IMG/VR virus record: IMGVR_UViG_3300031687_000064 | Span: 1 to 32,464 of that record | Direction: 5' to 3' (one strand) | From: a virus | Length of the DNA stretch: 32,464 nt | Shown: piece by piece, positions 29,134 to 32,446 of the stretch | How the letters are laid out: each line of letters starts with the position of its first letter | Numbering within the stretch: position 1 is the first letter of the stretch | Notes under the pieces: generated by a model | Databases searched by the model: none | Told to the model about the DNA's origin: nothing | Seen by the model: the letters and a program-made list of their open reading frames with translations, nothing else | Made by a program: the position numbers and the translations under genes

Positions 29134-30996
29134 ATGGCAGAAATGAACAAAATAAAATCTTTTAAATCGTTCTCTGATATAATAGCAACTGAATCAGCGG
29201 CTAAATTAGAAGAAGAAAACAATATTAAAAGAACAGAATTATCTACAAAGATTGCATCTATATTAGATTCAATGGAAATCACTTCATTAGAAGGATTAGA
29301 AGAAGATCAAAAATCAGCAATTATCAAGGAATTATTCGGAGATGTTAAAGAAGAAGACGTTATTGATGTCGATGTAGTAGACCAGCCGCTTGTATCTGAT
29401 GAACCTGAAGAAGAGATCGAAGAAGATACTAAATTAGAAGAGCGTAATGCATTTCTAGGAGCAAGGGCTAAAGCTATTGAAGAAGATTTAGAAGAATTTG
29501 AATTTAATGGTAAAACTTACCCTGTGACTGTTAATGAATCTACAGTACTTAATGAAGGAACTAGAGGTCAATTCGGTAAAATAGATAAAAAAGGAAATAT
29601 CACATCAGTATATACTCATTATGATTCATATCCTGATAACGTATTACCATTGATTAAAAAGGGTTATAAAAACGTTAAAGCAGTAGATGCTGTAATTAGT
29701 GGGGGAGCTAATTCTGGATTAGAAGCAACACCTGACAAAATGAATTTCTATAACGATGATTTTGAGGAAACAACAGGAACTATAAGTAAAATTAAGAATT
29801 ATTTAAAAAGTATCGCTGATGAATCTGGCGCTGAATACGCATATCTTTACGATGAAAGAATTGGTAAATGGATGATGGCAGATATTTATGGTGAAACTGG
29901 ATTAGTTAAAGCATTTGAATCAGTATCAGTTGAAGAAGCAACAGTAGTAATGGATGCAACTGATCCTAAATCAAAAGATCTCGCAAAGTTATTAAAGAAG
30001 AATAAAGTTACAATGGAAATTCTAGATATGGAAGGTCCTTCTGGATTTCCTGAAATTGAACTTAAAGGAAAAAGAAAAGATTTAGTTGCAGTTCTATCAA
30101 GTGAAGACGGATGGGACGACGCTGATTTAGCTGAATACATTGAAGAATCTAAAGTTATTGAAGAGGTTAATGAAGGAGCAGTTGTTTTAGCTAAACTTAA
30201 AAAGGACATCATATATTTAACAGATATGATGGAGGATGAAAGAATGTATGGAGATCCCGACATGAAAGAAATAGTAAAATTATTAAAAGCAAATAAATTA
30301 GAAGATGCTGCGACTGAGTTCTTATCATCATTTGCAGATCAAGACGGCGGAGAAGGAAATATAGACTGGGGAGGAGTCCAGAGTGATGTTGAACAGTCAT
30401 TTTCTGAATACGTTACAGAATCTTTAATTAATGAAGCTGTTACTATATTTGAAAAAGATTTAGCCGACATGATTAAGGAAATCAAAAAGGGTTATGGATG
30501 GATAGACCCTGAATACGTAGGAAGTACTTGGGAAAGTATGAGTAACTCTATATCATTTGATTTAGTTCAAAATGAAATATACAAAAGATTAATAGCTGCT
30601 GGATTATTAGCAACCCCAGGCGAAGATGAAGAAGAAGCTGGAACTTACATTAAATCTTTAAAAGAATTAGGTATTAAAGAATCTGTAGTTAATGAAGCAG
30701 AAGTTACGTCTGATGAAGAATTTAAAGAATATGCAACAACTATATTGAAGAAAGCATTCGGAGATGATTTCGACGAAGATAAAGCAAACGATGTTATTGA
30801 TGGTATATTATCAAAAGTAGACGGAGATTACGGAGCTGCTGTCGGAATGTTAACATCATCTTTAGGAGAATCAGTTGAACTAGACGAAAAGATCGATGAA
30901 ATACCATGCAAAGAAGGTAAGAATCATGATTGGAAGCAAATCGATAAAGACGGAACTTCTCAATGTAATAATTGTGGACTTTTAAAGTCTGAATAA
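29134..30996 (+). CDS. Acidic modular protein with repeated protease-like sites, candidate internal head polyprotein
   Basis: A 620-aa, very acidic protein of unknown family. The N-terminus (KSFKSFSDIIATE20-S21) resembles the capsid-targeting peptide of T4 internal proteins. Residues 21-140 are a Glu-rich helical region. Residues 142-255 form a unit I recognise from many phage hypothetical proteins: TRGQFGKIDKKGNITSVYTH, then YDSYPDNVLPLI and a 'kvdavIsgG..S.L' step. Smaller modules follow at about 269-343, 348-430, 435-515 and 522-590. The C-terminus is a short zinc-ribbon-like end with Cys592, His598, Cys611 and Cys614. Module borders coincide with VLNE141-G, SVEE268-A, EVNE347-G, LINE434-A and VVNE521-A, all fitting the T4 gp21-type pattern hydrophobic-X-Glu|Ala/Gly/Ser. 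A packaged polyprotein or prohead scaffold is possible. Confidence 0.6.
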   Translation: MAEMNKIKSFKSFSDIIATESAAKLEEENNIKRTELSTKIASILDSMEITSLEGLEEDQKSAIIKELFGDVKEEDVIDVDVVDQPLVSDEPEEEIEEDTKLEERNAFLGARAKAIEEDLEEFEFNGKTYPVTVNESTVLNEGTRGQFGKIDKKGNITSVYTHYDSYPDNVLPLIKKGYKNVKAVDAVISGGANSGLEATPDKMNFYNDDFEETTGTISKIKNYLKSIADESGAEYAYLYDERIGKWMMADIYGETGLVKAFESVSVEEATVVMDATDPKSKDLAKLLKKNKVTMEILDMEGPSGFPEIELKGKRKDLVAVLSSEDGWDDADLAEYIEESKVIEEVNEGAVVLAKLKKDIIYLTDMMEDERMYGDPDMKEIVKLLKANKLEDAATEFLSSFADQDGGEGNIDWGGVQSDVEQSFSEYVTESLINEAVTIFEKDLADMIKEIKKGYGWIDPEYVGSTWESMSNSISFDLVQNEIYKRLIAAGLLATPGEDEEEAGTYIKSLKELGIKESVVNEAEVTSDEEFKEYATTILKKAFGDDFDEDKANDVIDGILSKVDGDYGAAVGMLTSSLGESVELDEKIDEIPCKEGKNHDWKQIDKDGTSQCNNCGLLKSE

Positions 30997-31012
30997 AAAA
31001 AATTAAAAAAAG

Positions 31013-31045
31013 ATTGCCCTGGATTTTACCGGGTCAATTTTTTTT
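31013..31045 (+). terminator. Intrinsic terminator after the 620-aa gene
   Basis: ATTGCCC-T-GG pairs with CC-GGG-T-CAAT around the loop ATTTTA, with one T bulged on each side. The right arm runs straight into eight Ts. An A-tract (30994-31010) precedes the stem, so the structure could also stop transcription from the other strand. It separates the 620-aa gene from the three small genes, which therefore need their own promoter or read-through. Confidence 0.75.
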
Positions 31046-31058
31046 ATTATATTTACAT

Positions 31059-31083
31059 ATGAAACATATAAAACTATTTGAAG
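31059..31083 (+). repeat. Tag-coding repeat, copy 1
   Basis: The first 20 bases, ATGAAACATATAAAACTATT, are identical to copy 2, and the next five differ at one position (TGAAG against CGAAG). It encodes MKHIKLFE. Confidence 0.85.
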
Positions 31084-31493
31084 AGTATACTGAAACAATT
31101 TACCATGAAAATGATTTTGTAGGAATGCAAGCTCATAAACTTGGAATGACAAGAGAAGAATACACTGCGCATTACGGATCAGATTCAGGAATTGATGAAG
31201 CAAAGGCAATATCTTCTCAAAACGAACCATTTAAAGTAAAAGGAATTAACTTTTCTTATATAGAACAGAACGGTAAGTTTTATGGAGCAAGCTTATACGA
31301 TGTAGCTAAAACTGCAAACGTAAACAAGAAAGTAAAATTTGGATTAGACGAGATCAATTCTTTTTTGAAATCAATTAAGATCAAAGACGAAGTACCTTTT
31401 AGATACGAAGAAGAAGAATTAGAAGTTATTTGTAAACAATTAAGAAAAAAAGGCATCGTGTGTGATTATGACGATGTTATGGATGTATCCTAA
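31059..31493 (+). CDS. Candidate internal head protein with MKHIKLFE N-terminal tag (144 aa)
   Basis: The start is set at the Met at 31059. An upstream in-frame ATG at 31014 would lie inside the terminator hairpin, and the MKHIKLFE start is shared with the next two genes. The tag (MKHIKLFEEYTETIYHEND) is followed by QAHKLGMTREEYTAHYG, a polar helix-turn segment. SGIDE47-A48 is a possible protease site; unlike its neighbours, this protein lacks the Glu16-Ala17 step. The mature part would be a mixed alpha/beta domain (KVKGINFSYIEQNGKFYG) ending in a helix with two Cys (EVICKQLRKKGIVCDYDD). The function of the mature part is unknown. The shared tag implies a common destination, by analogy with T4 internal proteins the capsid interior. 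Confidence 0.6.
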   Translation: MKHIKLFEEYTETIYHENDFVGMQAHKLGMTREEYTAHYGSDSGIDEAKAISSQNEPFKVKGINFSYIEQNGKFYGASLYDVAKTANVNKKVKFGLDEINSFLKSIKIKDEVPFRYEEEELEVICKQLRKKGIVCDYDDVMDVS

Positions 31494-31504
31494 ACAAAAC
31501 AATT

Positions 31505-31529
31505 ATGAAACATATAAAACTATTCGAAG
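31505..31529 (+). repeat. Tag-coding repeat, copy 2
   Basis: 24 of 25 bases are identical to copy 1. It encodes MKHIKLFE at the start of the 123-aa protein. Confidence 0.85.
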
Positions 31530-31876
31530 CTTTTACTTCAACCCTAAGCGAAGCTAAAAAAGTAAGTCCGGCAGAATTCAAGAAATTGTTTGACGCATTA
31601 AAAGAGCTTACTAACATTACCAAGTTAAAGAAAGGTTCTAAAGGAGCTATAACGTTCACTGCGCCAGATGGTGACCCATATACAGTAAAACATGAAGAAG
31701 GAGACATCATGGTATATAACGATCAATATCTTATATGGAAAGATGAATATGCTGAGGAAGTTGGGGGAATATCTACAGATGATTTCGAAGATATGGAAAT
31801 AGAATTAGATTCTACAGATTCAGCTGAATGGTTGGATTTTCAAGAAGCTGTTGATTTTATTGCCGCATTAAAATAA
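31505..31876 (+). CDS. Candidate internal head protein with MKHIKLFEAF tag (123 aa)
   Basis: A 123-aa acidic protein. The N-terminal tag MKHIKLFEAFTSTLSE16-A17 ends at a Leu-Ser-Glu|Ala step that fits the T4 prohead protease rule (hydrophobic-X-Glu, then Ala/Gly/Ser). T4 internal proteins carry a similar leader, MKTYQEFIAEA, also cut after Glu. The predicted mature part (17-123) has a helix (PAEFKKLFDALKEL), a small beta region (GAITFTAPDGDPYTVKHEEG and IMVYNDQYLIW) and an acidic helical C-terminus (EWLDFQEAVDFIAALK). No known enzyme motif is visible. The gene follows the preceding stop by 11 bases and uses an A-rich leader, so the three tagged genes form one transcription unit. Confidence 0.65.
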   Translation: MKHIKLFEAFTSTLSEAKKVSPAEFKKLFDALKELTNITKLKKGSKGAITFTAPDGDPYTVKHEEGDIMVYNDQYLIWKDEYAEEVGGISTDDFEDMEIELDSTDSAEWLDFQEAVDFIAALK

Positions 31877-31906: not shown

Positions 31907-31931
31907 ATGAAACACGTAAAATTATTTGAAG
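31907..31931 (+). repeat. Tag-coding repeat, copy 3
   Basis: 22 of 25 bases match copy 1; differences at three bases change Ile4 to Val and leave the other residues of MKHVKLFE unchanged. Confidence 0.8.
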
Positions 31932-32446
31932 CATTCGTTGCAAACATCAGCGAAGCATCTAAGTTTAAAAAAGGAGACACGATAACTTCTAAAGTTAATG
32001 ATAACGGATTAGAATATTCTTTATATGATTTAACTAATGATGTTGACGGTATCTCATTAAACAAAGGTACTGAATTCAAAATAACAGGATTCAATAAAAA
32101 AGAAGAAACTGTTGAATTACAGGGAGTTAATGATGACGAGAATGAATATTCATTAGTATCTACTGATTTACAATTCTTCGAATCATTTACTTCAACATTA
32201 AACGAAGCTAAAGTAAACTTAAAGAAAGCTTTGAAAACACTGACATCAGACGGATATGACGCTCGTTTAGAATATGACATGATAAATGTTACAGATGATG
32301 AAAACGAATACCACTGGGATGGTATAGAAGCAAGTGTTGAAACAGAAAACAGCAACCAAGGATGGTCAACAGATGTAACATCAGTTGAAGATTTTATAAC
32401 ACTAATGACAGACGACGAACTTCCTACTGGAGAATGGGTAGATTAA
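31907..32446 (+). CDS. Candidate internal head protein with two tag/cleavage signatures (179 aa)
   Basis: A 179-aa protein that looks like two joined units. The N-terminal tag MKHVKLFEAFVANISE16-A17 parallels the previous gene exactly in length and cut position. Residues 17-89 form a small beta domain (KKGDTITSKVNDNG onward), SH3-like by pattern. Residues 90-101 (FFESFTSTLNE100-A101) repeat the tag core KLFEAFTSTLSE-A of the upstream protein. Residues 101-179 are a second domain: a basic helix (KVNLKKALKTL), then an acidic alpha/beta part (ARLEYDMINVTDDENEYHWD). If the prohead protease recognises both sites, one precursor would yield two internal proteins. This is inference from motifs. The window ends 18 bases after the stop. 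Confidence 0.65.
   Translation: MKHVKLFEAFVANISEASKFKKGDTITSKVNDNGLEYSLYDLTNDVDGISLNKGTEFKITGFNKKEETVELQGVNDDENEYSLVSTDLQFFESFTSTLNEAKVNLKKALKTLTSDGYDARLEYDMINVTDDENEYHWDGIEASVETENSNQGWSTDVTSVEDFITLMTDDELPTGEWVD
32174..32214 (+). repeat. Internal partial copy of the tag region
   Basis: It encodes FFESFTSTLNEAK in frame inside the 179-aa gene. TTTACTTCAAC and GAAGCTAAA are shared with the tag of the 123-aa gene at the same spacing, so it probably arose by fusion with a tagged gene. Confidence 0.7.

Follow-up and report, generated by a model that had tools for sequence, protein, structure and literature searches.

The 179-residue protein encoded near the end of the window, the whole 32,464-nt stretch of DNA analysed here, from an uncultured and apparently T4-like phage, is best explained (with a rough probability of 0.7) as a two-cargo precursor of the T4 internal-protein type, predicted to be cut after Glu16 and Glu100 and built by module exchange at the cut. 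The N-terminal tag (residues 1–16) would target the protein into the prohead core, a gp21-type prohead protease would cut it after both glutamates, and the two products (residues 17–100 and 101–179) would stay in the head for injection. The gene would have arisen when a tagged C-module gene was joined in frame behind an SH3-like N-module, and with the join at the cleavage-site codons, module exchange would leave clean ends on both products; the protein would be a two-module version of larger multi-site proteins, such as its 620-aa neighbour. The internal tag copy, the occurrence of separate as well as fused forms, the switch of modules at the site codon, the reuse of modules in different orders, the sites at module borders, and the protease and T4-type capsid genes in relatives were computed directly, and from these we infer by analogy packaging, both cuts, the release of two products, injection, and an anti-host function. 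The features concerned are the following.

29134..30996, plus strand: 620-aa protein of several modules, with six predicted sites; the modules are ordered differently among relatives
31059..31493, plus strand: neighbouring tagged gene, 144 aa counted from the ATG
31505..31876, plus strand: neighbouring tagged gene, 123 aa; its tag is the comparison sequence for the internal copy
31907..32446, plus strand: open reading frame of the 179-aa protein
31907..31954, plus strand: N-terminal tag of the 179-aa protein, residues 1–16 (MKHVKLFEAFVANISE); predicted capsid-targeting propeptide, compared with the T4 CTS as given in the available text of PMC9026906
31955..32173, plus strand: N-module, residues 17–89; SH3-like barrel in a moderate-confidence model, and an internal module of the 788-aa protein in L100 and L120
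32174..32206, plus strand: internal tag or connector, residues 90–100 (FFESFTSTLNE); the last codon is the predicted P1 glutamate
32206..32207, plus strand: predicted scissile bond between Glu100 and Ala101; exact point at which the window and L005 DNA diverge
32207..32443, plus strand: C-module, residues 101–179; tagged stand-alone gene in L006–L009 and L010–L014, and a confident domain of its own in the model

The protein starts with the tag MKHVKLFEAFVANISEA, and residues 1–16 end in I-S-E/A (a slash marks a predicted cut here and below). According to the available text of one account, the T4 internal proteins carry targeting propeptides of 10–19 residues, and T4 gp21 cuts after L/I-X-E (PMC9026906); by the same account, T4 IPIII is no longer processed when the corresponding position carries D. 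The tag agrees with this pattern of 10–19 residues and hydrophobic-X-E, and is predicted to be a capsid-targeting propeptide that is cut after Glu16. Neither Pfam nor PHROGs gave a significant match for the 179-, 123-, or 144-aa proteins, known internal head protein families included; this counts little, because the T4 internal proteins share little beyond the tag, as far as the available text of PMC3012670 describes them. The 179-aa protein is likened to internal proteins in its mode of working, by analogy, and homology is not claimed. The sole match in an isolate phage was to two copies of one Xanthomonas phage (E 0.8), and was taken as chance. At 31000–31050 of the window, 3′ of the 620-aa gene, an inverted repeat rich in GC, with a run of T behind it, looks terminator-like by eye.

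A preliminary description of this DNA had placed a second in-frame copy of the tag and cleavage signature at 32174–32214 of the 179-aa gene, which is correct to within a codon or two, as residue 90 starts at 32174 and residue 100 ends at 32206. The segment FFESFTSTLNEA (residues 90–101, 32174–32209) is identical at 9 of 12 positions to LFEAFTSTLSEA, with which the neighbouring 123-aa protein is tagged. When residues 18–179 were shuffled 100,000 times, the best 12-mer never exceeded eight identities, a score that was reached five times, and nine was reached in none; the runner-up internal 12-mer match among 549 representative ORFs (the window and 139 loci) was 7/12. At the DNA level, the internal copy and the neighbour's tag are identical at 32 of 39 nt. 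By eye, the copy agrees with the neighbour's tag at 9 of 11 positions (from Phe91) and with the protein's own N-terminal tag (FEAFVANISEA) at 5 of 11; judged by these sequences, the internal tag belongs to the neighbour's tag lineage and differs from the protein's own. The leading QFF probably still belongs to the N-module, as its last residues, since the L100 relative has DDLKNFVKESIVTE/S at the same place, and the tag-derived portion is probably about ESFTSTLNE/AK. No in-frame ATG, GTG, or TTG was seen near the junction when the sequence and translation were read by eye, so that the C-half would be unable to start separately there, and a separate internal start was ruled out on this ground. 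A simple internal-tag pattern gave 17 matches, compared with a shuffled mean of 6.4 and a maximum of 13, and many such pattern matches in other proteins are thus due to chance.

A scan of viral contigs returned 11 loci, and the N-module was found to carry three different C-parts: those of the window, L004, and L005. The first 101 residues in L004 are 83% identical to those of the window, and another C-module (YSKSDIRK...ELGLN) follows the site; this type of C-module is a stand-alone tagged gene in L006–L009 (MKHVKLFEAFASTLNE/KYSSSDIKK...ELGLR). The 39 residues available from L005, comprising N-module and tag, are identical to the window up to residue 100, and a third C-part follows the site (NE/KDWSDPDMW). 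The site is kept in 3/3 fused forms (NE/A, NE/A, and NE/K). The C-module of the window occurs as a stand-alone gene with its own tag in L006–L009 (NINE/AKVNLKK) and L010–L014 (INE/EKINVKK). As a stand-alone gene, the N-module was never found among 818 distinct ORFs; it was seen only fused or within the 788-aa multi-module protein of L100 and L120, where it is flanked by ESIVTE/A (ESIVNE/A in L120) and ESIVTE/S.

The preliminary description had proposed a fusion of two tagged genes with loss of the stop and start, for which separate and fused homologues were to be compared. The comparison, in which the C-halves of the window (L006–L009 and L010–L014) and of L004 (L006–L009) are both found as separate genes, upholds the in-frame joining, and the claim of two genes is borne out for the second half only. 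The further proposal that the cassette grows by duplication found no support, and a tandem duplication of a single gene was ruled out: the N- and C-modules are unrelated to each other, and the internal tag comes from the lineage of the neighbour's tag, which is distinct from that of the protein's own. By sequence, an exchange of modules at the cut site accounts for the pattern better than a duplication does. At G001 95790–96572 (the same in L006–L009, four contigs), an upstream 141-aa ORF runs in frame via the leader KQNKTI into the stand-alone C-module gene, whose ATG is retained, an arrangement that is possibly a fusion in progress. The end of the window (32464) and the start of L005 fall in the same kind of gene, and the next gene in L005 is the one found after the 620-aa homologue in G001, so that N-module genes may be present twice in tandem, as N+C and N+C′, in this genome.

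The joint itself can be placed to the base. The window and L005 share 109 identical nt, one mismatch, and 8 identical nt (117/118 bases), after which they diverge at 32207, the first base of the codon after Glu100. An exact run of 18 nt, AACGAAGCTAAAGTAAAC (N-E-A-K-V-N), is shared between the window junction and the tag end of the stand-alone C-module gene in G001 (L006–L009), and the GC content is 28.7% upstream of the joint and 36.7% downstream. Elsewhere in the window, the longest exact DNA match to the junction is 12 nt. A repeat of 12 nt is too short to produce an assembly chimera at usual assembler k-mer sizes, and such a chimera was ruled out on the basis of this maximum and of the three contigs with fusions at the same residue. 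Judged from these alignments, related phages swap the second half exactly at the predicted cut.

The window–L005 difference could also be read as a swap inside the tag by phages that recombine at short tags, in which case the internal tag would be a by-product and the protein would work uncut, with two domains; fusions that retain leader and start codon exist, and cleavage here is predicted from sequence, which both favour this reading. It is nevertheless unlikely in view of a third module, of ~300 aa, in which tags decay selectively, losing the targeting half (FExF, Met) and keeping the [NT]E/A half. Eleven representatives match this module in full or in part. It is a tagged stand-alone gene in three (o314, o324, and o330); it is joined to an upstream ORF in one (o129), where translation still includes the AT-rich leader and start Met (ENKNNMENTKFIFESF...SLNE/A); it is fused in three with the tag retained and the Met gone (o15, o18, and o378); and it has only a short connector in another three (o27, o55, and o57, with ELNE/A, LITE/A, and VVNE/A). 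The eleventh match (o109) is weak (E 6e-8), lacks a tag, and has LLTE/K. LNE/A, LNE/S, VNE/A, ITE/A, or similar is kept in 10 of the 11. Read as a sequence series, the targeting half erodes and the predicted cut half persists, and the existence of separate, intermediate, and fused forms lends support to the proposed fusion with lost stop and start.

Read-through of a leader is also seen in G001 for the window's C-module and for MKTNFIFESF, and in L060 for a UPF0227-like protein with a relative in L061, the UPF0227-like assignment coming from a Pfam scan of the L060 protein only among the read-through fusions. At L060 6670–7626 and L061 6977–7822, the UPF0227-like protein and its relative, respectively, are read via the leader into a homologue of the window's 144-aa protein, and in L061 the tag joins directly at SE/AKAIS. 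This direct joint suggests that the 144-aa protein of the window is cut at IDE/AKAIS. Among pairs of stand-alone and internal copies, which are dependent on one another, 19/63 are without a strict site at the junction.

The 620-aa neighbour extends the pattern to larger proteins. It contains six predicted sites, compared with 0.68 expected from shuffling, and has at least 80 relatives. With ten seed modules, nine from the window and one from G001 (gaps in other proteins being unnamed modules), its architecture reads AB//CE/F//G/HZ, many relatives read A/C/D/B...H, and others read A/D/B//C or A/Z...D/C. Across these relatives, the same modules occur in different orders with predicted [LIVMFY][NST]E/[AGS] sites between them. 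Homology break-points, which are not fully independent, lie within 5 aa of a site in 134/549 cases (24.4%), compared with a mean of 8.0% and a maximum of 11.1% in 500 site rotations, and are thus about three times as frequent near sites as in the rotated controls; for proteins less than 50% identical, the figure is 71/267 (26.6%) versus 7.7%. With six decoy motifs, 1.0–6.0% of break-points lay near the motif, and the decoys E to Q (5/84) and polar P3 (12/199) also topped their own small nulls. Connectors of the form E[SA]x1-4[NST]E[AGS] past residue 40 number 166, compared with 18.5 expected (maximum 30) in shuffles, and a mere scar of recombination would not maintain these. In two cyanophages, one of the modules of the 620-aa protein is encoded separately; its product starts MGTRS, which matches the residues that follow the LNE/GTRG site in the 620-aa protein. 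In L047 (4737–5894), a 385-aa tagged protein has further sites (LNE/A, VNE/A, and VNE/A) separating small modules; by eye, one of these (AKFKVGDKW...) is similar to the SH3-like module.

A precursor would be expected to consist of modules that fold separately and are also found alone, with protease sites at their borders. The predicted sites do lie at module borders; the C-module occurs alone and appears to fold separately, and the N-module is a module elsewhere and never alone. In the full-length model of the 179-aa protein, pLDDT is below 50 up to residue 99, block means are ~76–91 for residues 101–170, and the last nine residues have 69, from which the C-half is modelled as a separately folding domain; the alignment was five rows deep, which limits the N-part. 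A helix modelled across residues 88–114 (pLDDT below 50 up to 99) spans the predicted site, which might hide it and speaks against an open site. Modelled alone, the N-module forms an SH3-like barrel with a mean pLDDT of 74 in the best of five models (33–61 in the other four), and fold comparison gave Z up to 6.8, a level at which numerous SH3, Tudor, and KOW barrels scored alike, so that the barrel assignment is suggestive only. Foldseek returned nothing at E ≤0.001 for the full-length model against solved structures (best E 0.23), or for the N-module against a viral library.

If the site is cut, the N-module (17–100) might be a propeptide that is discarded as in the giant phages, leaving the C-module alone as cargo; the available text of PMC10052503 describes long propeptides in SPN3US that undergo several cuts and for the most part do not stay in the head. 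This seems quite improbable, given that the N-modules of the window and L004 share 83% identity despite unrelated C-parts and that the module is reused inside the 788-aa protein, which suggest a function of its own. Chance combined with a natural end of the SH3-like module, DLQFF being partly module-derived, or an assembly chimera is very improbable in the face of 0/100,000 shuffles, which already refute chance for the ESFTSTLNEAK part, a longest junction repeat of 12 nt, and three contigs fused at the same residue.

The two-cargo precursor would depend on a head protease. No S77 protease gene, portal, or Gp23 was found in the window, which is a fragment, and an S77 prohead protease is present in 4/8 records of one set of relatives and 3/7 of a second, with Gp23 in 4/8 relative records. 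In G001, a T4-type portal, a tagged 112-aa ORF, an S77 protease ORF, and Gp23 are consecutive, and Gp23 starts MNLLNE/AEIKNTWAPIISE/ATGINE/SS (slashes being the analyst's site marks). The S77 domain lies within open frames of 648–747 aa in 7/7 matching records; at L028 11307–13364 (G001), the long acidic, repetitive C-part of this frame resembles a scaffold joined to the protease. In 55 N-terminal tags with a readable site, where P1 is E by construction, P2 is N in 37, P3 is V/I/L in 44, and P1′ is A in 17; the K that follows the site in L005 is present in 7/55. At P3, V is the commonest residue (19/55), whereas T4 gp21 prefers L/I in the available text of PMC9026906. Single-linkage clusters of the tags merged too much and serve as leads only. 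From the site kept in all three fused forms and the protease encoded by relatives, we infer that the 179-aa protein may be cut at both sites.

In the available accounts, the T4 internal proteins IPI, IPII, and IPIII with their CTS are likewise small proteins with a propeptide of 10–19 residues ending L/I-X-E (PMC9026906, PMC3012670), and have a conserved tag with highly diverse mature parts; T4-type head genes accompany the present family in relatives. They differ in that here the tag recurs inside a protein between two unrelated modules, tagged genes are many more, the tag sequence is another (MKHxKLFExF..NE/A), and no sequence match to them was found (PHROGs, Pfam). The diversity of T-even internal proteins was reportedly described by Repoila et al. 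in 1994. The T4 core proteins gp22, gp67, and gp68 are also cut into several fragments at short E-ending sites; those pieces are scaffold fragments that leave the head, whereas here distinct modules are reordered and reused between proteins. Viral polyproteins likewise yield several products from a single reading frame, with target sites of the virus-encoded protease between them; they differ in that the products here are predicted phage head cargo. The ejected head proteins of SPN3US and phiKZ resemble the present case in their multiple cuts after E and in being carried with the DNA, but their extra cuts, in the available text, lie in propeptides (PMC10052503), whereas some of the pieces in the present case are modules that exist elsewhere as independent genes. 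Neither tagged internal proteins nor head proteins cut at several places are new; in the open-access literature searched, as far as its available text extends, an exchange of cargo modules at sites of the prohead protease is not described.

T4 injects its internal proteins to counter host defence, and the GmrSD restriction enzyme that is blocked differs among Ip1, Ip2, and Ip3, according to the available text of PMC12373910; by analogy with these three, the best guess for the products of the 179-aa protein is the inhibition of host defence. At somewhat less than even odds, these phages may build head-packaged injected effectors as shuffled precursors, with one tag, several modules, and protease-cut [LIVMFY][NST]E/[AGS] connectors at which recombination yields new effector sets; the 179-aa protein would then be the smallest case and proteins of ~400–830 aa the large ones. 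If this is true, the cut site doubles as a joint, and cargo could be exchanged with both products left intact. Scanning for the signature is straightforward; it would predict cargo borders to the residue and provide lists of candidate injected proteins.
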